A DNA stretch of 64,000 bases from Sideroxyarcus sp. Its GTDB lineage: Bacteria; Pseudomonadota; Gammaproteobacteria; Burkholderiales; Gallionellaceae. The notes beneath the pieces were generated by a model, which had not been told where the DNA came from, did no database searches, and worked only from the letters and a program-made list of their open reading frames with translations. Where the stretch lies: assembly GCA_030651895.1 (NCBI GenBank), contig JAUSBR010000010.1, positions 1 through 64,000 of the forward strand. The letters are read 5' to 3'. A program made the position numbers and the translations under genes. Below are positions 54,785 to 64,000 of this stretch, in pieces; position 1 is the first letter of the stretch; the number at the start of each line of letters is the position of its first letter.

Positions 54785-56548
54785 CTATTTTCCGCGCATA
54801 AACATCGCATCCAGCTCCGCCAGCGTCACTTGGAACCAGGTCGGCCGCCCATGGTTGCATTGGTCAGCGCGTTCGGTCTGTTCCATCTCGCGCAGGATGG
54901 CGTTCATCTCGGGGAGGCTGAGTTGCTGGTTGGCGCGCACGGCGGAATGGCAGGCGAGGGTGGCGAGCAGTTCGTTGCGGCGTTCGGTGAGGGCGCGGCT
55001 GGCGCCGAAGTCGCGCAGTTCGTGCAGCACTTCGCGCGCGGCGGTTTCGGCGTGCGATTGCTTGAGCATGGCGGGCATGGCGCGTACCGCCAACGTGTTG
55101 GTGGAGATGGGGGCGATATCGAAGCCCAGTTGTTTTAGCGCTTCCTGTTCTTCTTCGGCGGTGGCGATGTCCAGCGCTTCGGCGGCGAAGGTGACGGGGA
55201 TGAGCAGCGGCTGGGTTGGCATCTGCTGGGCGTCGAAGGCGGTCTTAAGTCGTTCGTACACGATGCGTTCATGGGCAGCGTGCATGTCGACCACCATCAG
55301 GCCTTGCTGGTTCTGGGCGAGGATGTAGATGCCTGAGAGTTGACCCAACGCAAAGCCCAGCGGGTGGGCATCCTGTTGAGGTGCGGCGGCCTCCTGTTCG
55401 CGTACGACGGCGGATTCTTCCCACAGTTTGTAGGCAGCTTGGGGTTGGGCAGCAGTGAACGGGATGTTTTGTTGGGTACTCGTGTAGGAGCTAGTTTGCT
55501 GGCGAATGCCATTCGCGGCTGTGACTGCTCCTTCAGGAGTTGTGCCGGATTGAGCTTCTGCCATCGTCGTGCTCAGCGCATCCTGCAAGGCATGGAACAC
55601 GAACTGGTGGATGCCCTGGCTTTCGCGGAAGCGGACTTCACTTTTCGCAGGGTGCACATTGACGTCCACCTGTTCCGGCGGCATGTCGAGGAACAGGACA
55701 AAAGCGGGATGCCGCTGGTGGTGCAGGATGTCTTGGTAGGCCTGGCGCACGGCGTGCATCAGCACCTTGTCGCGTACGAAGCGGCCGTTGACGAAAAAGT
55801 ATTGTTCGTCGCGTGTGGAGCGCGAATAGGCGGGCAGGGCGGCGATGCCGTAGAGGTGCAATGCACCGATCTGGCGCTCGGCGGTGACGGCGTGTTGGCC
55901 GAATTCGGAGCCGAGGATGGCGGTGATGCGCTGCGGCAGGTCGTGCCTGGGCAGTTGCCATACGCTCTTGCCGTTGTGTTGCATTGAGAAGGCGACATCC
56001 GGCCGCGACAGCGCTATGCGCTTGAACGTCTCTTCGCACCAGGCGTATTCGGTGTTCTCGCTCTTGAGGAATTTGCGCCGCGCCGGGGTGTTGAAATACA
56101 GCTCGCGCATCTCGATGGTGGTGCCGTTGGCATGGGCGGCGGGGGAGGCGGAGCCTTGAGTGCCGTCGGCCGCCTCGATCTTCCAGGCATGCTCGGCTTC
56201 GGCGTTGCGGCTGGTGAGTGTGACCTGCGCCACGGCGGCCATGCTGGCTAGTGCCTCGCCGCGGAAGCCCATGCTGGCGACTCGCTGCAGGTCATCCAAT
56301 GATTTGATCTTGCTGGTGGCATGGCGCATCAGCGCCAGCGGCAGTTGTTCCTTGGCGATGCCACTGCCGTTGTCGCGCACCCGCAGCAATTTGATGCCAC
56401 CATTCTCAAGTTGCACAGCAATCTCGGTCGCACCCGCATCCAGACTGTTCTCCAGCAGTTCTTTCAGCGCCGAAGCGGGGCGTTCGATCACTTCGCCGGC
56501 GGCGATCTGGTTGATGAGGAGGTCGGGAAGGAGCTGGATGGTGGACAT
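54785..56548 (-). CDS. mutL: DNA mismatch repair protein MutL
   Basis: 587 residues. N-terminal GHKL ATPase: LINQIAAGEVIERPASALKELLENSLDAGATEI, VRDNGSGI, MGFRGEALASM. The C-terminal domain has DMHAAHERIVYE (near residue 418), matching DQHA-x2-E-x4-E, so this MutL is probably an endonuclease that nicks DNA itself, as in bacteria without MutH. A low-complexity Gln/Thr linker joins the domains; part of it (about 339-355) is encoded by a REP-like palindrome. No mutS is present in this window. Confidence 0.97.
   Translation of the reverse strand: MSTIQLLPDLLINQIAAGEVIERPASALKELLENSLDAGATEIAVQLENGGIKLLRVRDNGSGIAKEQLPLALMRHATSKIKSLDDLQRVASMGFRGEALASMAAVAQVTLTSRNAEAEHAWKIEAADGTQGSASPAAHANGTTIEMRELYFNTPARRKFLKSENTEYAWCEETFKRIALSRPDVAFSMQHNGKSVWQLPRHDLPQRITAILGSEFGQHAVTAERQIGALHLYGIAALPAYSRSTRDEQYFFVNGRFVRDKVLMHAVRQAYQDILHHQRHPAFVLFLDMPPEQVDVNVHPAKSEVRFRESQGIHQFVFHALQDALSTTMAEAQSGTTPEGAVTAANGIRQQTSSYTSTQQNIPFTAAQPQAAYKLWEESAVVREQEAAAPQQDAHPLGFALGQLSGIYILAQNQQGLMVVDMHAAHERIVYERLKTAFDAQQMPTQPLLIPVTFAAEALDIATAEEEQEALKQLGFDIAPISTNTLAVRAMPAMLKQSHAETAAREVLHELRDFGASRALTERRNELLATLACHSAVRANQQLSLPEMNAILREMEQTERADQCNHGRPTWFQVTLAELDAMFMRGK
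55483..55531. repeat. REP-like palindrome inside mutL linker
   Basis: TGTAGGAGC (55483-55491) and GCTCC (55527-55531) form the outer arm, with GGAGC/GCTCC pairing. GCGAAT-GCC-ATTCGC (55502-55516) is a perfect 6-bp stem with a 3-nt loop at the centre. The TGTAGGAGC-N-GCGAA-N-TTCGC layout is like the extragenic palindromes known from pseudomonads. Here it lies in frame in coding sequence and no stop is created. Confidence 0.6.
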
Positions 56549-56638
56549 GGCGCTGGATTATACCGGATGGGGCTTTCGGAGCTTGACGCTACGCGGATAT
56601 GACTCTCAACCGCAAATGTTGCGTCCTCCTTGGAGAGT

Positions 56639-56668
56639 GCGACATTTTGTCGCGCGACAATATGTCGC
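56639..56668. promoter_or_regulatory. Tandem 15-bp operator dyads upstream of TonB receptor gene (site 1)
   Basis: Two abutting inverted repeats: GCGACATTTTGTCGC (56639-56653) and GCGACAATATGTCGC (56654-56668), each GCGACA-N3-TGTCGC and together a nearly perfect 30-bp palindrome. They match a second pair at 62921-62950 in sequence and in spacing to a shared downstream box. The first dyad fits GNG(A/G)C(A/G)TTNNGNCGC, reported for RegA/RegR-type redox response regulators, so such a regulator is a candidate. Confidence 0.75.
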
Positions 56669-56686
56669 ATTCCCCTTTCTGTAGTA

Positions 56687-56706
56687 GGTCTTTAGTATTC
56701 GCCCCG
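56687..56706 (+). promoter_or_regulatory. Shared promoter box 1
   Basis: The 20-nt box beginning GGTCTTTAGTATTCGCC is identical at 62969-62988 and is 48 nt from the start of the tandem operators in both places. TAGTAT inside it resembles a -10 element, with a weak TTCCCC at the -35 position next to the operators. This suits activation by a protein bound at the dyads. The start codon is 31 nt downstream. Confidence 0.55.
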
Positions 56707-56736
56707 TTTTATCAACAGCAATTCACAGGGGGAAGT

Positions 56737-58914
56737 ATGAAAAAGAAGCTATTCGCCATGAGCGCGCTGCCGCTCATGTTTTCCATGTCGTGCGTCAATC
56801 AAGCCTATGCGGAAGATGTGCCTGCCACGCCAGCGGCGGAGCCGGGTAGCGCTGTGCCGGCTGTGGAAAAAGCAACTCCTGCAGGTGGCGTGACCAAGAA
56901 GATGCTTGATGAAGTGTCGGTCACTGCGACGCGTGAGGCACGCACAACTCGTGAAGTTCCCCAGGCCATCGCGGTGGTCGGAAAGGACAAGATCGAAAAG
57001 AAGCGCATGTTCAACCTGAAGGAAGCGCTGGAGGGTATCCCGGGTGTGCAGGCAGAAAGCAAGAACGGCGGTTCTGATGTGCGTTTGTTCATTCGCGGCG
57101 CGGGGGTGAAGGCGACATATGGCATTCGCGAGATCATGGTATTGCGCGATGGCGTGCCGGTGACGGATCCGGACAGCCTGACACGCCTCGACTTCATCGA
57201 CATGCAAGATATCGAGCGGGTCGAGGTCAGCAAAGGGCCTGGCAACATCTACAGCACCGGCTCTTTCGGTGGTGCGATCCAGATCATCTCCAAATCCGTG
57301 TTCGACAAGAGCGGCAATGTGGCGCGCATCGGGGTGGGTGAGCAGGGCGCCAAGAATCTGCACCTTCGCCAGGCCGGAATGATCAATGACAGCAATGCAC
57401 TTGCGGTAACCACCTCTTTCAGAAAACAGGACAATCCCTGGCGCATCAGAAACATATCAGAGTCAGAGCAGATCGGGTTCAAGCATGGCCTGTTGCTGGA
57501 TGGCGGGGCGACGCTGGAAAGCGAATTGACCTATGCAAATTCGCAGATGCAGCTGCCTGGCGGGATGGATCTGGCCGGGTTCAACAACTATCTGTCGACG
57601 GGGACGCAGACCACGACGTCCAGCCAGTGGAAACACTCCAAGCGTGATTCCAGAGTATGGTCGTTCAATACCAAATACGAGAAAGAGATCGGCGACTGGA
57701 CGGTCAAGCCACGCGTCTACGCGAACTGGTGGAAGCATTATCACCCTGTGACCGGTCTGATCAACGACACGATCGACTGGACCAAGACGATAGGTACCGA
57801 TCTTGAAGGACAACTGAAGCACAGCGTGGCCGGTCTTCCTGCTTCACTGGTGGTTGGTTTGACTTTGCGTCAGGTCGGCAACAATGATTCAAGACAGTAT
57901 CAATACCGCGATGTCACCACCGGTTTCGGCGGGAGGATCACCGCAACGCTTTCCGACACCAAGGGTGCGCTGGCGAATCAGGAAAGCTACACGGACACTG
58001 TCCGGGGGGTGTTCCTGCAAGAGTCATTACGTCCCAATGAGGCATGGCTGATCGATGCCGGAATGCGTTTCGACCAGTCCAAATTCTCGATGACGGCGAA
58101 TGAGATATCGAAGTTCAACTACACGACCGGTACTTATGTGGCGGGAGCTGGGCTCACGCGCACCGAGAAGAGCTACAACCTACCCTCCTACAAGCTGGGT
58201 GCAACCTTCAAGGCCACCGAGGAGATTAATCTGTATGTGTCGGCAGGGCGCAGCAACCAACTGCCTTCCAATGCCGAGATATCTTCCAACCCCAATCTCA
58301 CTTTGGCGACATCGACCAACTACGAAGTGGGTATCAAGGCCAGGGCTGATGCGTGGTTTGGCAATGCATCGCTGTACAACAATGATCTGACAAACGAGAT
58401 CGTCAGCGTCAACACCGGCGGCGTGACTGCCTTCGTCAATGCGGGAAAAACGAAGAAGAAGGGCCTAGAGCTGGATGGCGGCTACCTTGTTCTCGACAAC
58501 ATCGAGGTCGGCGGTCAATACAACTACAGCGATTATCACTACGCTACATTCAGTGAGCCGGTGGGAGCGAGTAACGTGGTTCGCGATGGCAACCAGTTGC
58601 CCTACATCCCGCAGAATCGATACGGCGTGTTTGTGGGATACAAGGACAATTCCGGATTCAGCGCACGTATGCAGTCGAACTACTCGGGTGCCTATTTCAC
58701 GGATAACGCGAACAGTCTGAAGTATGAAGGTTATCGTGGCGTCATCAGTGCCTCCGTGGCATACGAGGCCGGTGCGCATCTGCTCAGTCTGAGTGCGGAG
58801 AATCTGACCAACAAGTACTACGCCATCGAAGTCCAGAAAAGCACCCAGGGAACGGTCACTTACACGGCGGCTTCTCCGCGCGTGATCATGTTCATCTACT
58901 CCTACAAGCTTTGA
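56737..58914 (+). CDS. TonB-dependent outer-membrane receptor
   Basis: 725 residues. The signal peptide is MKKKLFAMSALPLMFSMSCVNQAYA, with cleavage before EDVPA, then a Pro/Ala linker. The plug has DEVSVTATREARTTREVPQAIAVVGKDKIEKKRMFNLKEALEGIPGVQ, SDVRLFIRGAGVKATYGIREIMVLRDGVPV and IERVEVSKGPGNIYSTGSFGGAIQIISKS. The barrel ends TAASPRVIMFIYSYKL. Start 56737 has GGGGGA 5 nt upstream; the ORF extension to 56599 is promoter sequence. The ligand is unknown. It leads a metal/redox gene set. Confidence 0.95.
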   Translation: MKKKLFAMSALPLMFSMSCVNQAYAEDVPATPAAEPGSAVPAVEKATPAGGVTKKMLDEVSVTATREARTTREVPQAIAVVGKDKIEKKRMFNLKEALEGIPGVQAESKNGGSDVRLFIRGAGVKATYGIREIMVLRDGVPVTDPDSLTRLDFIDMQDIERVEVSKGPGNIYSTGSFGGAIQIISKSVFDKSGNVARIGVGEQGAKNLHLRQAGMINDSNALAVTTSFRKQDNPWRIRNISESEQIGFKHGLLLDGGATLESELTYANSQMQLPGGMDLAGFNNYLSTGTQTTTSSQWKHSKRDSRVWSFNTKYEKEIGDWTVKPRVYANWWKHYHPVTGLINDTIDWTKTIGTDLEGQLKHSVAGLPASLVVGLTLRQVGNNDSRQYQYRDVTTGFGGRITATLSDTKGALANQESYTDTVRGVFLQESLRPNEAWLIDAGMRFDQSKFSMTANEISKFNYTTGTYVAGAGLTRTEKSYNLPSYKLGATFKATEEINLYVSAGRSNQLPSNAEISSNPNLTLATSTNYEVGIKARADAWFGNASLYNNDLTNEIVSVNTGGVTAFVNAGKTKKKGLELDGGYLVLDNIEVGGQYNYSDYHYATFSEPVGASNVVRDGNQLPYIPQNRYGVFVGYKDNSGFSARMQSNYSGAYFTDNANSLKYEGYRGVISASVAYEAGAHLLSLSAENLTNKYYAIEVQKSTQGTVTYTAASPRVIMFIYSYKL

Positions 58915-58958: not shown

Positions 58959-59006
58959 ATTGTCGAGCGAGTTCGGACAATCAAGTCTGCTATCGAGGAA
59001 ACGGCA

Positions 59007-59921
59007 ATGAAAAATAATGGAATATTGATAGTGCTGGTGTTGCTGGCTGTATCGACTGCACAGGCGGCTGAAACGGCAACCCGGCCTTCTGCAACGATGG
59101 GGGAACCCGGACATGACCATGCGGCGATGATGAGGAAAGCAAAGACTTCGTGGACGCTCTATCCGACACTGAAAGTCAGAATGAGCGGAGATAGCCGTGC
59201 GACGCAGGTCATCACCCTGGCGCCGCAAAACATCGTTGCAGATGTCATTGAGGATTATTCAAACGATCTGAATGACGAGAAAGCACACAGCAAGTTGCCT
59301 GTGGGCATGGGCGGTGCCAAGTTCGACAGATCGGCAAAAGGCGGTTTTCACATGCTGGCAGCACGGGAGGAGAACGGTGCAAATGTTCGAGTAGCCTCCA
59401 CTGTCTATTACAACGGTGAACGCGGGGCGAAGAATCCGACCGCGATGTTCATGCAGCAGAAGCATGAACTGGAGATCATTCCGCAGCCGCAACCGCGCGA
59501 GCATTCCCGCTATCGTGCCAACGAGGACTGGAAATTCATGGTGCGCCTCAACGGCAAGCCGCTGTCCGGACAGAAGGTCTATCTGGAAACATCGAATGGC
59601 AGCATGTCCGAGTTCGTGTCGGATGCGCAGGGCATGTTCGTTATGCATGTTCCGGACGACTTCAAGGCTGAAGAAGAAGGTGGGCAGGCATCAGCGCACA
59701 ACCACGGCAGACGCGGGGCCGATCTGGTTCTGGCTACCGAGTATGTCGAGCAAGGCAAGAGTTATCTGACTGCACTCAACAGCAACTACGGGCCCGATGC
59801 GTTCGATCAGCGCAATCTGGCGAAGGGGGCAGGGTTCGTCCTGCTTGGCATGCTGGGTGCGGTGCCGCTGTTGCGCAAGCGCAAGACCGAACAAAAGGGC
59901 GAGGAGAGCGACAATGCTTAA
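59007..59921 (+). CDS. Periplasmic DUF4198-like protein with C-terminal anchor
   Basis: 304 residues. The signal peptide is MKNNGILIVLVLLAVSTAQA. A His/Met motif, GEPGHDHAAMMRKAK, follows the mature start. The core (NEDWKFMVRLNGKPLSGQKVYLET, SEFVSDAQGMFVMHVPDD, AHNHGRRGADLVLATEY) resembles the DUF4198 family found near metal transporters. A C-terminal helix (GAGFVLLGMLGAVPLLRKRK, about 275-295) with a basic end would anchor it. GAGGAA before the ATG sets the start at 59007, not 58938. It overlaps the next gene by 8 nt. Confidence 0.72.
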   Translation: MKNNGILIVLVLLAVSTAQAAETATRPSATMGEPGHDHAAMMRKAKTSWTLYPTLKVRMSGDSRATQVITLAPQNIVADVIEDYSNDLNDEKAHSKLPVGMGGAKFDRSAKGGFHMLAAREENGANVRVASTVYYNGERGAKNPTAMFMQQKHELEIIPQPQPREHSRYRANEDWKFMVRLNGKPLSGQKVYLETSNGSMSEFVSDAQGMFVMHVPDDFKAEEEGGQASAHNHGRRGADLVLATEYVEQGKSYLTALNSNYGPDAFDQRNLAKGAGFVLLGMLGAVPLLRKRKTEQKGEESDNA

Positions 59922-60972
59922 AACACTATTCCCGACGCTGGGTCGCGTTCGTTTCACCGTGCAGATACTCATGTTGTTTCTGACCGTATATGGCGGCGCG
60001 CTGCTCGGCAGCTATACCGTGGACCGTATCTCGCAGGCATTACCCGCGCTGTCCTGTGCCTATGATAAGACCACCGGCGACCATTGCATCCTTATCGTCA
60101 ACCAGCATCTGTTGCATCACCGGGTGGGCGAGGCGCTAGTCAACGCGCAGAACTTCACACTCAAGGTGTTCATCCCGGTAGTGATGTCGGTCGGCATTTT
60201 TTTCATGTTCTTCTTCTTCCTCAACAAGATGTTCTGCGGCTGGGTCTGCCCGCTGGGTACGGTGCAGGAGTTGCTTTACCGCATCGGCCGCCGTCTCGGT
60301 CGTCCGCTCAACCGCTTCAATCCCAAGAACGTCGGTCGTGTGCGTCCGGTGAAATGGCTGATGTTGCTGGTATTGGTGCTGGCTCTTCCGGTCATGGCGG
60401 GTATGGGGGTGGTGAGCAACGAACTCGGCGACCCGTTCTGTCAGGTCTGCCCCTCGCGCATTGCCACGACCTTGCTGACGGCGGATAGCGAGCAGATCGC
60501 CGTGCGCACCTCGACCACCGTTAACTTCGCCCTCGGCGCACTGGGCAACGCGATGTTCGGCTTCATCATCATCGCAGCGCTGGCTGCACGCCAGCCTTTC
60601 TGCCGCATCTGTCCTCTGCTGTCATGGAATGCGCTGTTTCAGAAGCTGTCGCCGATGCGTTTGGTGAAGAAGGATGCCCACGAGAAATGCGAGAAGTGCG
60701 GTGTGTGCGAAAAGGCTTGCCCGATGGACATTCACGAGATCGGAACTCAGTTCGGCAAGAAGGCTTTTCACGAAGACTGCACCCTGTGCGGGCGCTGCGC
60801 CGAATATTGTCCGGACGATGATGTGATCCAGATCAAATTCTTCGGCATCAGGCTGTTCGGTTCTTCGCGCGAGTATTACAAGAAGCGGGTGAAGCTGGAA
60901 ACGCCGGAAGGAACGCAGAAGAAGCGTGTCATCAGCATCCATCCCGGCAAGCCGAAAACCGAGAATGAATGA
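59914..60972 (+). CDS. NapH/CcoG-like membrane polyferredoxin
   Basis: 352 residues. Four membrane helices carry cysteine pairs: FCGWVCPLGTVQE near 107, FCQVCPSR near 176 and FCRICPLLSWN near 229. Two 4Fe-4S sites follow in the cytoplasmic part: CEKCGVCEKACP near 259 and CTLCGRCAEYCP near 289. NapH/CcoG proteins pass electrons across the inner membrane, and CcoG reduces Cu(II). The link to a TonB receptor and periplasmic metal-binding protein suggests metal reduction. It starts inside the DUF4198-like gene's end (8-nt overlap) and the next gene begins 7 nt before its stop. The start at 59914 is chosen over an in-frame 59797, which lies inside the upstream gene. Confidence 0.9.
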   Translation: MLKTLFPTLGRVRFTVQILMLFLTVYGGALLGSYTVDRISQALPALSCAYDKTTGDHCILIVNQHLLHHRVGEALVNAQNFTLKVFIPVVMSVGIFFMFFFFLNKMFCGWVCPLGTVQELLYRIGRRLGRPLNRFNPKNVGRVRPVKWLMLLVLVLALPVMAGMGVVSNELGDPFCQVCPSRIATTLLTADSEQIAVRTSTTVNFALGALGNAMFGFIIIAALAARQPFCRICPLLSWNALFQKLSPMRLVKKDAHEKCEKCGVCEKACPMDIHEIGTQFGKKAFHEDCTLCGRCAEYCPDDDVIQIKFFGIRLFGSSREYYKKRVKLETPEGTQKKRVISIHPGKPKTENE

Positions 60973-61624
60973 GCTGCTGAATACCTCCCTGCTGCCGCAG
61001 CAGACCACGCTGTTCACCGTGTGGCTGCTCGGTGCCTCGCTGGGGCTGACCGCCTGTACCGCGACCTGCCTGCCGTTCATGGGCACCTGGGTGCTGGGAC
61101 GTGGCGGTACGCAGATGCAGGCCTTGCGCGATACAGCGCTGTTCATTAGCGGACGTATCCTTGCTTACATCCTGCTTGGTGCCCTCGCAGCCGGGGCGGG
61201 TGCATGGCTGGCACAGGTGATGCGTGGCGGCATCGGCAATTTCGTCATAGGAGCAGCGTCGATAGCCGCCGGGCTGTGGCTGTTGCGTCCCGGCAAGGCA
61301 CATGCGCCGTGCGATGCAGCGCGCAACGCGGGCAGCACGCCGCCGTTGTTGCTTGGTTTTTCACTGAGCCTCACGCCGTGCGCGCCGTTGGCGTCCCTGT
61401 TGGCTGTGTGTGCGGCAGCGGGCAGCGTGAAACTGGGCATGGCCAGCGGAGCAGCCTTCGGTCTGGGAGCCGCGCTGACACCCCTGTTGATCATCTTGCC
61501 GCTGATCAGCCTATTGGGAAAGAATCTGCGCGAGAACCGCGATTGGATGAACCGCTGGATCCGCTGGGGTGCGGCAACGGTGATGATCATACTGGGGCTT
61601 CGACGAATCCTTCTCGTTCTTTAG
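60965..61624 (+). CDS. Sulfite exporter TauE/SafE-like membrane protein (COG2836 type)
   Basis: 219 residues, about six helices. LGASLGLTACTATCLPFMGTWVLGRGG (near 20-45) and LLGFSLSLTPCAPLASLLAVCAAAGS (near 128-150) have Cys/Pro pairs as in CcdA/DsbD-like and copper-related proteins. COG2836 members occur with cbb3 oxidase assembly genes. It probably moves electrons or metal at the inner membrane. It overlaps the preceding polyferredoxin gene by 8 nt, so the two are coupled. It could also be annotated as a DsbD-like transporter. Confidence 0.78.
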   Translation: MNELLNTSLLPQQTTLFTVWLLGASLGLTACTATCLPFMGTWVLGRGGTQMQALRDTALFISGRILAYILLGALAAGAGAWLAQVMRGGIGNFVIGAASIAAGLWLLRPGKAHAPCDAARNAGSTPPLLLGFSLSLTPCAPLASLLAVCAAAGSVKLGMASGAAFGLGAALTPLLIILPLISLLGKNLRENRDWMNRWIRWGAATVMIILGLRRILLVL

Positions 61625-61676: not shown

Positions 61677-62141
61677 ATGTTAAAAAAGATGCTTAAAGTC
61701 CTTCTGTCGCTGACCTTGTTGGTCGGATTTGCCGGGGTTGCCCAGGCCGAGATGACGCGTGAGGAATATGCCATCAAATTCCGCCGCAGCAGTTTTACCA
61801 CCATGACCTGGTATATGGGCGCCATGTCTCGCATGGTGAAAGGCGAGATGACTTACGACAAGGCGCTGTTTGCCCGCAATGCCGAATATGTGGCGTTTCT
61901 GAGCAAACTGCCCAAGGATGGTTTCATTCCGGGAACAGAAAGCGGCGACACCAAAGCCAAGCCGGAGATTTGGTCCAAGGCAGACAAGTTCAAGGATGCC
62001 AACGACAACATGGAGAAAGAGACGGCCAAACTGGCTGAGCTGGCCAAAGTCGGCAACTTCGACGACCTCAAAGAACAATACGGCAAGATGCAAAAGACCT
62101 GCAAGGTCTGCCACGAAGAGTTCAAGAAAAAGGCCGATTAG
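61677..62141 (+). CDS. Cytochrome c' / c556 family protein
   Basis: 154 residues. The signal peptide is MLKKMLKVLLSLTLLVGFAGVAQA, with cleavage before EMTRE. The heme site CKVCHEEFKKK lies near the C-terminus (residues 141-145), as in four-helix-bundle cytochromes c' and c556. Lys/Ala/Glu-rich helices precede it. It would accept or give electrons in the periplasm, possibly to the polyferredoxin or to cytochrome b561 encoded next to it. Confidence 0.92.
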   Translation: MLKKMLKVLLSLTLLVGFAGVAQAEMTREEYAIKFRRSSFTTMTWYMGAMSRMVKGEMTYDKALFARNAEYVAFLSKLPKDGFIPGTESGDTKAKPEIWSKADKFKDANDNMEKETAKLAELAKVGNFDDLKEQYGKMQKTCKVCHEEFKKKAD

Positions 62142-62165: not shown

Positions 62166-62843
62166 TCAGGCAAATCTCGCCAGCAGCCAGACCGCCCCCG
62201 AAGTGCATCCCAATATCAGCAATGCGAGCCATGCTTTTTGAGGGTGAAGCTGGCGCAATTCTATTCCCCGCGGCAGATGTTTGATGCCGGTGAGCATCGG
62301 CTGTACCAGATTCTCTTTCTTCACCAGCAGGTAGAACGCAATGGCGGCAATGTGCAGTCCAACCAGGACGAGCAGTAAATAGAATCCGCTTTCATGCCAC
62401 GAAGTGGACAGGTCACTGTAACGCTCACTGACGTAGTGTGCCAACGGGCCTTCGCTCATGATGTCGTCGTTGGCGAACAGGCCGGTTACCGAAACGAGCA
62501 ACAACATTCCCAGTAACAACAGCACCATCCAGCCACCTGCCGGGTTGTGGCCGATAGCTTGGAGCGCATCGTTCTCGCGTGCGCCGAAAAGATATTCGAA
62601 TACAACACGCGGCGAAGTGACGAAGCTGGAAAAGCGAGCTGTCGTGCTTCCGAGAACTCCCCATACCAAGCGGAACAGCAGTAGGGCAAGAACTGCATAG
62701 CCGCAACGCATGTGCCAATCGATGTCGCCGTCTTCGCCCGCAGTCCACCAGCATGCGATCACCAGCAACAGCAGTGACCAATGGAACAGGCGGGTGGGCA
62801 GGTCCCATACCCGGTACGATTCGAGCTTGTCGTTCTTTGCCAT
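62166..62843 (-). CDS. Cytochrome b561 family protein
   Basis: 225 residues, four helices, typical of prokaryotic cytochrome b561. YRVWDLPTRLFHWSLLLLVIACWWTAG carries the first heme His. IDWHMRCGYAVLALLLFRLVWG and FYLLLVLVGLHIAAIAFYLLVKKENLVQPMLTG carry others. It can take electrons from a periplasmic cytochrome or quinol. Start at 62843 (MAKNDK); 62864 (MSTQ) is possible. It is minus strand and divergent from the second TonB receptor gene, so the operators at 62921-62950 lie in its own promoter region. Confidence 0.9.
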   Translation of the reverse strand: MAKNDKLESYRVWDLPTRLFHWSLLLLVIACWWTAGEDGDIDWHMRCGYAVLALLLFRLVWGVLGSTTARFSSFVTSPRVVFEYLFGARENDALQAIGHNPAGGWMVLLLLGMLLLVSVTGLFANDDIMSEGPLAHYVSERYSDLSTSWHESGFYLLLVLVGLHIAAIAFYLLVKKENLVQPMLTGIKHLPRGIELRQLHPQKAWLALLILGCTSGAVWLLARFA

Positions 62844-62920: not shown

Positions 62921-62950
62921 GCGACAAATTGTCGCGCGACAATATGACGC
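62921..62950. promoter_or_regulatory. Tandem 15-bp operator dyads between cytochrome b561 and TonB receptor genes (site 2)
   Basis: GCGACAAATTGTCGC (62921-62935) and GCGACAATATGACGC (62936-62950), the same pair type as 56639-56668, with two and one changes respectively. The pair stands between divergent genes, so it could control both. Spacing from operator start to the shared box is 48 nt, as at site 1. Confidence 0.75.
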
Positions 62951-62968
62951 ATTCCCCTGGCTGCTGTG

Positions 62969-62988
62969 GGTCTTTAGTATTCGCCCCG
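62969..62988 (+). promoter_or_regulatory. Shared promoter box 2
   Basis: Same 20-nt box as at 56687-56706, starting GGTCTTTAGTATTCGCC. It lies 32 nt before the receptor ATG (31 nt in the first copy). Candidate -10 is TAGTAT. Confidence 0.55.
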
Positions 62989-63020: not shown

Positions 63021-64000
63021 ATGAATAAGAAACTATTCGCCATGAGCGCGCTGCCGCTCGTGTTGTCCATTTCGTTCGCCAATCAGGCAAATGCGGAAGA
63101 TGCGGCGGTGGTTGCGCCTGACATGGCTGCGGAAACGGTTGTGCCTGTCGTTGCCGCACCATCCGCGGATGAAGTGAAAATTATTGAAACTGAGAAAGCG
63201 AAAGCACCCCAAATGCTCGGCGATGTGGTGGTGAGTGCCTCCAAGATTTTGCAGTCCACCAAGGAGGCTCCTAGTGCAGTCGCTGTTATCACTTCTGCAG
63301 AGTTGGAGAAAGGTAATAACCAACGAGTAGGGGATGCATTGATTGCAGCTGTTCCAAGCTTCTACAATCGAGGAGGAGCATTGAGAGGTTCAAAGGGTGG
63401 CGCTGGCAATAATATGTCTATGCGCGGTCAGGGCGGGTCGCTGAAAAAGATTGTTTTCATTGTCGACGGCATCAATATGGTTGATGCGTATTCAGGTGAA
63501 GTGAATTTTTCTGCGGTTTCGATGGACGATATCGAGCGGATAGAAGTTGTGCCTGGCGTTGGTTCGGCCTTGTACGGTAGCAATGCTATGGGGGGCGTGG
63601 TCAGCATCATCACAAAGGCCCCTACTAAGAAAGAAGTCGTTATCAAATCGGGGTCGGGCTATGGGGATGCGGCTGGTTTGTATTCAAGTGTTTCATACAG
63701 AGATAAATTCGAGAGCGGTTTGGGAATCGTCTTTGGTGTTTTCCGGAATATTCGTGATGGATACGTGTCCGATTATGTGACCAAGACACCAACCGGGGTT
63801 GCAACAACTCAGCCTGTAGCCAGTGGCGCTATAGCAACCACAACTTACACTGGCAGCCCCACGTACATCGTTGGTGACAAAGGTCTCAATGCATCTACCG
63901 AGAGAAATGTAAACACGAAGTTGTATTTCGATTTGTCGCCCACAGCAAGAATATTTGCAGGCGTTTCTTATGCAGATGACAGTTACGAAAATCAACGCTA
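63021..64000 (+). CDS. TonB-dependent outer-membrane receptor, N-terminal part (runs off the window)
   Basis: 326 residues are visible with no stop codon. The signal peptide is MNKKLFAMSALPLVLSISFANQANA, close to that of the receptor at 56737. The plug has VVVSASKILQSTKEAPSAVAVITSAELEKGNNQRVGDALIAAVPSF, MSMRGQGGSLKKIVFIVDGINMVD and IERIEVVPGVGSALYGSNAMGGVVSIITKAP. AGGGGAGTG precedes the ATG. The Ala/Val-rich linker after the signal peptide and the barrel start differ from the first receptor. Ligand unknown. Confidence 0.92.
   Translation, partial: MNKKLFAMSALPLVLSISFANQANAEDAAVVAPDMAAETVVPVVAAPSADEVKIIETEKAKAPQMLGDVVVSASKILQSTKEAPSAVAVITSAELEKGNNQRVGDALIAAVPSFYNRGGALRGSKGGAGNNMSMRGQGGSLKKIVFIVDGINMVDAYSGEVNFSAVSMDDIERIEVVPGVGSALYGSNAMGGVVSIITKAPTKKEVVIKSGSGYGDAAGLYSSVSYRDKFESGLGIVFGVFRNIRDGYVSDYVTKTPTGVATTQPVASGAIATTTYTGSPTYIVGDKGLNASTERNVNTKLYFDLSPTARIFAGVSYADDSYENQR

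Follow-up and report, generated by a model that had tools for sequence, protein, structure and literature searches.

Tandem 15-bp dyads before TonB-dependent receptor genes of Gallionellaceae form a probable RegA-type operator at a fixed distance from a -10-like hexamer

Introduction

In the 64,000-nt stretch of Sideroxyarcus DNA analysed here (the window), two genes for TonB-dependent receptors are each preceded by two abutting 15-bp inverted repeats. An earlier note on this DNA attributed the repeats to a redox or metal response regulator, named a RegR/RegA box, and suggested control of both receptor genes and of a cytochrome b561 gene divergent from the second. Which regulator is likely to bind these sites, and how would it act on the receptor promoters?

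Passages of PMC5506826 describe the HTH of RegA, PrrA and RegR as identical, yet their published boxes as degenerate and dissimilar, and portray RegA as a dimer that becomes a tetramer on target DNA and mostly binds upstream of -35. In passages of PMC4263372, no strong consensus emerged from ChIP of PrrA, and the account of PrrA targets mentions cytochrome b561; by the passages of these two sources, neither A. ferrooxidans nor R. sphaeroides yielded a clear site. A well-conserved recognition sequence is claimed for R. capsulatus RegA from ChIP-seq (PMC5359404, in part). According to an excerpt of PMC13274454, RegA raises tbdr and tonB expression in Methylomonas, with no appreciable binding seen at those promoters by ChIP.

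Results

Two tandem dyad pairs in the window

Reading of both sites confirmed that the window carries four 15-bp dyads arranged as two abutting pairs (Table 1). All four take the form GCGAC-N5-G(T/A)CGC, that is, inverted GCGNC and GNCGC half-sites with a short spacer. Half-sites lie 10 bp apart inside a dyad and neighbouring dyads are offset by 15 bp (spacings of 10, 5 and 10 bp); together with a flanking T and A, the pairs at sites 1 and 2 are near-palindromic at 30 of 32 and 28 of 32 positions, respectively. When at most one mismatch was allowed, the dyad was found five times in the window as compared to 0.45 expected, and none of 100 shuffles reached five. The likeness of the two sites extends beyond the dyads: positions 56639-56706 and 62921-62988 are identical at exactly 60 of 68 bases without a gap, including the box GGTCTTTAGTATTCGCCCCG at the same spacing, in agreement with the earlier estimate by eye. 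After a short indel, the two sequences become alike again over the codons of the signal peptide, with 88% identity across 66 nt.

Both receptors scored above the cut-offs for the Plug (PF07715) and barrel (PF00593) domains. The polyferredoxin ORF overlaps the preceding gene, so that its true start probably lies further downstream.

Table 1. Sites, putative promoter elements and genes around the two operators of the window
Feature	Position	Strand	Remark
Distal RegA-type dyad, site 1 (GCGACATTTTGTCGC)	56639..56653	.	sequence read
Proximal RegA-type dyad, site 1 (GCGACAATATGTCGC)	56654..56668	.	sequence read
Putative weak -35, TTCCCC, site 1	56670..56675	+	assignment inferred
20-nt box GGTCTTTAGTATTCGCCCCG	56687..56706	+	identical at both promoters; contains the -10, then a GC-rich stretch
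Putative -10 hexamer, TAGTAT, site 1	56693..56698	+	24 nt past operator edge; 17-nt spacer
TonB-dependent receptor 1	56737..58914	+	725 aa; Plug and barrel
DUF4198-like protein	58998..59921	+	below Pfam cut-off; probable operon member
NapH/FixG-like polyferredoxin	59797..60972	+
DsbD_2-type membrane protein	60926..61624	+	true start probably downstream of the one listed
Cytochrome c'	61677..62141	+
Cytochrome b561	62166..62843	-	divergent from receptor 2; start codon inferred from relatives
Distal RegA-type dyad, site 2 (GCGACAAATTGTCGC)	62921..62935	.	sequence read
Proximal RegA-type dyad, site 2 (GCGACAATATGACGC)	62936..62950	.	sequence read; one mismatch
Putative weak -35, TTCCCC, site 2	62952..62957	+	inferred
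Putative -10 hexamer, TAGTAT, site 2	62975..62980	+	inferred
TonB-dependent receptor 2	63021..64000	+	800 aa; extends past the window (L017:3021-5423)

The abutting pair is specific and centred on Gallionellaceae

The whole 2.13-Mb draft genome (73% complete) was scanned, with the reversed pattern as control. The single dyad (at most one mismatch) matched 41 places versus 23 for the control, a moderate enrichment that makes it weakly specific alone, whereas the abutting pair (at most three mismatches) matched five places versus none. These five were both window sites, two overlapping pairs at C11:51471-51515, and C11:51696-51725.

The pair was present in 70 of 150 genomes of the family, taken here as Gallionellaceae (reversed control, 2 of 150), and in 21 of 34 genomes of the genus (control, 0). 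Across the order, at no more than two mismatches, 10 of 250 genomes contained it, namely 2 of the 7 genomes drawn from the same family and 8 others, with 2 for the control. Exact pairs in the named genome collection amounted to 14 stretches, from Nitrosomonas, Nitrosovibrio, Rhodocyclaceae/Rhodocyclales, Rubrivivax, Curvibacter, Gallionellaceae and other Gammaproteobacteria. Based on these counts, the tandem element seems to have been elaborated mainly in Gallionellaceae and to be used sporadically in other groups. When the gap between dyads was left free from 0 to 30 in the same 150 family genomes, 48 places were found (control, 0 of 150), with a gap of 0 in 39, 2 in four, 1 in one, and 8, 9, 23 and 29 once each. 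The dominance of gap 0 in this search indicates a preference for abutting dyads, rather than an effect of the pattern used in the first search.

Most large genes beside pairs encode TonB-dependent receptors

Sixty family loci were fetched: each of the 20 other genus genomes with a match contributed, for a total of 21 regions, and 39 regions came from other genera among the matches listed. Two sequences were duplicated: L086 equals L146, and was omitted from the promoter sets, and L191 equals L088. A TonB-dependent receptor started within 200 nt of the pair in 41 of the 60 family loci and in 6 of the 14 named loci (one of which duplicates a family locus), leaving 19 and 8, respectively, with no receptor start beside the pair. 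With MutL set aside, pairs had 53 distinct ORFs of 600 aa or more beside them. Of these, 51 were TonB-dependent receptors with both Plug and barrel at E 0.001; one of the others was a U32 peptidase, and the last an ABC transporter lying opposite a receptor. Joint control of both window receptor genes, as proposed earlier, is supported by this recurrence of the element at receptor promoters across the family.

Other neighbours of pairs included regB-type genes (L081, L112, L117, L127, L132 and L133), cydA (L107 and L115), cytochrome c' (L123 and L125) and a regA-type gene 348 nt away (L147). The sites without a clear target include L104, L137 and L138. Outside the family, five of the eight sites from the order scan adjoin receptor Plug-domain genes (L186, L187, L190, L191 and L193), and at L193 the pair has the receptor Plug gene on one side and, on the other, the gene of a RegB-type kinase scoring 271 bits.

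Copper as the common receptor substrate was considered and rejected as a general rule, with only 4 of the 53 ORFs matching the TonB-copper model TIGR01778 at E 1e-40; at this threshold, a hemin model was matched by 35 and a siderophore model by 32, in overlapping sets. In genus g12, several receptor leaders (L118, L122, L129, L131 and L141) contain, after the -10, an AT-rich sequence that by eye resembles a Fur box and suggests a second layer of control. Separately, a single dyad (TGCGTCATATTGTCGCA, L016:4246-4260) lies upstream of a cluster of ECF sigma, anti-sigma-like and heme-type receptor genes.

The operator lies at a fixed distance from a -10-like hexamer

For the promoter profile, 57 site-ORF rows, MutL ORFs having been set aside, were reduced by four overlapping third-dyad rows and two non-receptor ORFs to 51 receptor promoters, which were aligned on the operator. 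Positions G1, G3, C5, A6, G11, C13 and C15 were kept in 51 of 51, a result that the query pattern favours. Outside the query pattern, ATTCCC directly after the operator was strongly conserved and present in most promoters, and TAnnAT began 24 nt past the operator (T 43, A 50, A 46 and T 50 of 51), followed by GC-rich CCGCCC. A -10 hexamer matching at least 4 of 6 bases was found at an offset of 23-25 nt in 49 of 51 receptor promoters, as compared to 6.1% of random positions in the same loci. At six other offsets in these promoters, such a hexamer occurred in 2, 8, 6, 5, 23 and 13, the highest count being in the AT-rich leader.

Twenty site-directions were picked by hand: 12 promoters for the geometry count, five directions towards b561, two at L193 and one at receptor 2. 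All 12 promoters (regB, 5; cydA, 3; cytochrome c', 2; regA2, 1; copper receptor, 1) had a -10 at 23-25 nt, and 9 of the 12 matched 5 of 6 bases; some of the cydA and cytochrome c' promoters come from close relatives and are thus not independent. Since the same offset occurs at unrelated gene families, shared descent of the receptor promoters cannot explain the geometry. If the -10 is placed at -12 to -7, the operator would span approximately -66 to -37, its two dyads being centred near -59 and -44, and would lie next to a poor -35. Such a position upstream of a poor -35 is the arrangement of an activator site, as far as the predicted promoter elements hold.

In the direction of cytochrome b561, the same geometry was absent or weak, and the earlier suggestion that site 2 also controls this divergent gene found no support here. 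Genes resembling b561 lie near pairs in four relatives. No -10-like hexamer was seen at operator distance in the window, L102 or L103, and only a weak TACCAT in L123 and L125.

RegB- and RegA-type proteins are encoded, and the element marks their genes

A search for a regulator of the RegA/RoxR type, another proposal of the earlier note, yielded a RegB-type kinase and two RegA-type proteins. On contig C17, a RegA-type gene lies directly behind the kinase gene (L019:4812-6155), whose product carries the quinone motif GGxxNPF as GGSTNPF and, after the H-box, a conserved cysteine in QVKSCKRIL. Relatives picked by the quinone motif show the same RegB features; the L193 kinase has GGSTNPL. The C17 kinase scored 240 bits against NF033792, for which the cut-off is 350 bits and which none of 60 family genomes passes, and a six-frame search of this genome with NF033792 gave no match at E 1e-50.

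The gene for the second RegA-type regulator (L016:7822-8388, contig C11) adjoins cydAB, with a three-unit operator on each side. A second match to the ActR/PrrA/RegA family NF033791 was seen in 12 of 150 family genomes, two of them with an internal stop. The C17:22172 copy scored 202.7 bits and the C11:51842 copy 178.5 bits; neither reaches the cut-off of 250 bits, nor does any of the 150 family genomes, and we therefore call both proteins RegA-type and not certified members. NF033791 was by far the best-scoring family for the C11 copy, which combines a PF00072 receiver with a PF02954 Fis-type HTH. Of 33 loci searched for the recognition helix, with a pattern that fixes part of it, 32 carried MHRRTLQRK; the remaining locus, L147, ends at a contig end. 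The closest solved structures of the HTH were 3rqi (response regulator protein) and 1umq (photosynthetic apparatus regulatory protein), the latter presumably PrrA. The C17 copy was aligned to both, and MHRRTLQRK is common to the two structures.

The element also occurs at the genes for these proteins. A single intergenic region on contig C11 separates cydA (leftward) from the regA-type gene (rightward, L016:7822) and holds three 15-bp units per side, some with mismatches, before cydA and before the second regA; CydA and CydB beside these arrays gave strong matches. On C17, regB and a divergent receptor gene have a single dyad (TGCGACATATTGCCGCA) between them, at 38 nt from the start of regB. 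The product of this receptor gene passes the TonB-copper cut-off (672.8 versus 472.45 bits), and a PCu(A)C gene comes after the receptor gene. RegB matches were found in 44 of 60 family genomes searched, and the best 30 RegB loci were taken. The start was assignable in 27 of these, and a dyad with at most two mismatches lay 34-41 nt before it in 12 of the 27; with hand-picked loci (4 of 5), the total was 16 of 32, as compared to a chance expectation of approximately 0.0008 per locus from shuffle density. The nine RegB loci of genus g8 had no dyad at the regB start.

A RegA match was present in 137 of 150 family genomes, and pairs occurred in 67 of these 137 and in 3 of the 13 without a RegA match, the three being 79, 79 and 85% complete. 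Because RegA is nearly universal, this co-occurrence test has little power.

Comparison with published RegA boxes

The earlier note gave the first dyad as a match to the RegR box. This match exists, but GNGRCRTTNNGNCGC was matched by only one of the four window dyads, which is not above chance with 0.47 matches expected in the window. The ChIP consensus for R. capsulatus RegA, SSGNVRDNHYSNCSS, matched all four dyads; the string has 128 window matches where 73 were expected, and this is thus weak evidence. When read by eye against the PrrA string YSCGGC(5)GWCRMA, as given in a passage of PMC5506826, the three bases ahead of the 5-bp core are GAC in the dyads but GGC in the string.

Likeness to the RegA/PrrA/RegR/ActR/RoxR boxes, as far as the cited passages describe them, lies in the inverted GCGNC and GNCGC half-sites, in the 5-bp spacer of the RegR and PrrA strings and in the occurrence at cyd genes; likeness to the regulators lies in the receiver with Fis-type HTH, paired with a quinone-motif RegB kinase. 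Unlike the published boxes in those passages, the sites described here are near-exact, abut in twos or threes and are locked approximately 24 nt from the -10.

RegA boxes are already known, as are effects of RegA on iron uptake. In both R. capsulatus and Methylomonas sp. DH-1, RegA alters iron-transport genes, in the latter including a TonB-dependent receptor; by the passages cited, R. capsulatus differs in that most iron genes are repressed, and the effects on tbdr and tonB in Methylomonas sp. DH-1 are probably indirect by ChIP, whereas here the receptor promoters themselves carry putative operators. Among the matches listed for the open-licence PMC literature, no RegA operators at TonB receptors were found for Gallionellaceae or Sideroxydans, the Methylomonas report being the nearest, and an abutting operator with fixed geometry, concentrated at receptor genes, appears to be new.

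Fur-controlled promoters of TonB-dependent receptors are alike in that receptors are placed under a global regulator, and unlike in that the operator here lies upstream of -35 and is common to respiratory genes. By eye, the operator is also unlike what we take to be the consensus of the Fur box.

A shared 5' module and a mosaic receptor region

The two window receptors are 85% identical in DNA from operator to ATG and 88% in leader DNA, as compared to 28% identity of the mature proteins. For 72 pairs of unrelated leader types from different genomes, mean and maximum identity were 73 and 83% for the leader and 76 and 82% from operator to ATG. Three of 11 within-genome receptor pairs exceeded the maximum for the leader, as the window pair does, and five of 11 for the operator-to-ATG stretch. 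At L142 (G074), two neighbouring unrelated receptors (27% mature identity) have identical operator letters and 95% leader DNA identity. A shared leader as a general rule was rejected, since only 3 of the 11 pairs beat the 83% maximum of unrelated leaders. The 60 of 68 identical bases probably have two causes, a conserved operator-promoter and a common origin of the 5' module.

Around receptor 1 (window 54785-58914, and L090-L109), the position next to mutL is occupied by either of two unrelated receptor types, depending on the species, and the flanking genes are conserved where aligned. Fourteen genus genomes with a readable receptor had the two types in 3 and 11 genomes, at 22-27% identity between types, and MutL was 78-94% identical among those genomes (the partial L093 copy being left out). 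The receptor 1 body is 94-100% identical in DNA to that of G093 in each 100-bp step from 56781 to 58880, with lower identity in the flanks. Divergence at fourfold sites was 35/354 for the receptor, 8/50 for partial mutL, 9/107 for TonB, 46/103 for DUF4198 and 138/257 for receptor 3. A recent horizontal cassette transfer of the receptor 1 body is weakened by the low fourfold-site divergence of partial mutL and TonB as well. The region around receptor 1 is mosaic, and we claim neither direction nor recency.

Discussion

The motif and its arrangement, the fixed geometry, the target genes and the presence of RegB- and RegA-type proteins were read from the DNA itself; RegA binding, activation rather than repression, and the signal are what we infer. 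On this basis, each site is very likely a tandem RegA-type operator at which two RegA dimers, bound at about -37 to -66, would activate a weak -35 promoter when the respiratory chain is reduced. The membrane kinase RegB, which has the quinone motif and a conserved cysteine, would phosphorylate an ActR/PrrA/RoxR-like RegA, and either of the two RegA paralogues may be the actor. Two RegA dimers would then occupy the two abutting dyads. Since half-sites are 10 bp apart and dyads are offset by 15 bp, the dimers should sit on nearly opposite faces of the helix, which could explain joint filling of abutting sites. With the operator ending at about -37, immediately before a poor -35 and at 24 nt from the -10, RegA is expected to recruit RNA polymerase or to stabilise it there, and so to turn the receptor operons on. 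The same element, in one to three dyads, would serve regB, cydAB, the second regA and cytochrome c', and its presence at these genes suggests that receptor synthesis is part of a respiratory redox regulon.

The background matches of the single dyad might suggest a chance similarity within GC-rich promoter DNA, but this is refuted for the pair by its absence from the control in this genome and its near-absence from the 150 control scans, and we regard its likelihood as virtually nil. Alternatively, the 68-bp match might be mainly the trace of a 5' module (operator, promoter, leader and signal peptide) copied by recombination, in which case identity alone would be no proof of selection for joint control. 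The high leader identity of the window pair and of the G074 pair, set against their dissimilar mature proteins, fits such copying. The baseline was exceeded by only a minority of within-genome pairs, though, and the operator and its -10 distance recur at receptor-unrelated regB, cydA, regA2 and cytochrome c', which contradicts the module as a sufficient cause. Copying as the main cause is thus quite improbable; as a contribution, it is compatible with the RegA-type operator and does not exclude it.

Might the operator be bound by another regulator, such as a second Fis-type response regulator or a metal sensor, which controls RegBA and for that reason has sites at regB and cydAB? The RegA matches lie below the equivalog cut-off, and TonB-copper receptor, PCu(A)C and NosL-like genes occur near some sites. 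Against this, the inverted GCGNC-N5-GNCGC half-sites fit published RegA and RegR sites (passages of PMC5506826 and PMC4263372), the sites mark regB, regA2 and cydA, where RegA is reported to control cydAB positively in B. pseudomallei (an excerpt of PMC8191878), and the recognition helix is constant, as the search pattern favours. We consider another regulator improbable. It is unlikely that RegA binds the operator yet represses the receptors, as it does iron transport in R. capsulatus, where RegA represses 40 iron-uptake genes anaerobically in minimal medium (passages of PMC5359404); the operator here lies entirely upstream of the predicted -35, beside a weak hexamer, which is the usual place of an activator.

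A RegA-type activator operator, if this assignment is right, would directly connect the redox state of respiration with TonB-dependent uptake, in a way that can be tested, where the Methylomonas data in the cited excerpt (PMC13274454) suggested an indirect connection. These sharp sites, repeated by the dozen at a fixed promoter position, are well suited to footprinting or to a RegA-DNA structure, and allow one to ask how the RegA dimer becomes a tetramer on DNA.

As to the signal, the earlier proposal of a redox or metal response regulator stands in its first part: with the element at regB, regA2 and cydAB and with RegB and RegA encoded, a redox regulator of the RegA/RegR type is the likely binder, while a metal signal is unproven. 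Redox control through quinones is our default reading, and copper is a lead. The receptor that passes the TonB-copper cut-off has its operator region in common with regB. PMC9147068 describes RegA of R. capsulatus as itself a copper-binding protein that dimerises through Cys156. In our alignment, an asparagine of the C17 RegA copy faces the sole cysteine of the 1umq HTH stretch, which would correspond to this residue. The periplasmic TM5-TM6 loop of RegB, between the last two membrane helices, is variable and often Met/His-rich in the family (L150-L179; here MQGMDHSHHDMSSMQ, L019:4812-6155) and is a possible metal site. The idea that such a loop is unique to the family was dropped, as loop histidines are common in other families of the class and only the longer Met-rich forms stand out. 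The open-licence PMC literature yielded nothing that joins RegB, copper, histidine kinase and periplasmic loop.

A broader proposal, which we think unlikely, is that the RegB/RegA system of Gallionellaceae has become a switch through which redox state and metals jointly control the outer membrane. It would combine an expanded Met/His-rich periplasmic loop of RegB that might bind copper, the operator region shared by regB and the copper receptor, and a standard module (tandem RegA operator, -35, -10, and sometimes leader and signal peptide) before interchangeable receptors; a new receptor would then enter the redox regulon at once.

Just past the window on contig C16, a small exported Cys/His-rich protein (EECKKTEKHPECKACKEACAACYEECRKVAA, L017:12047-12490) is encoded beside tonB-exbB-exbD-like genes. 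It has no Pfam match and resembles, by eye, a four-helix copper-storage protein of the Csp1 type.
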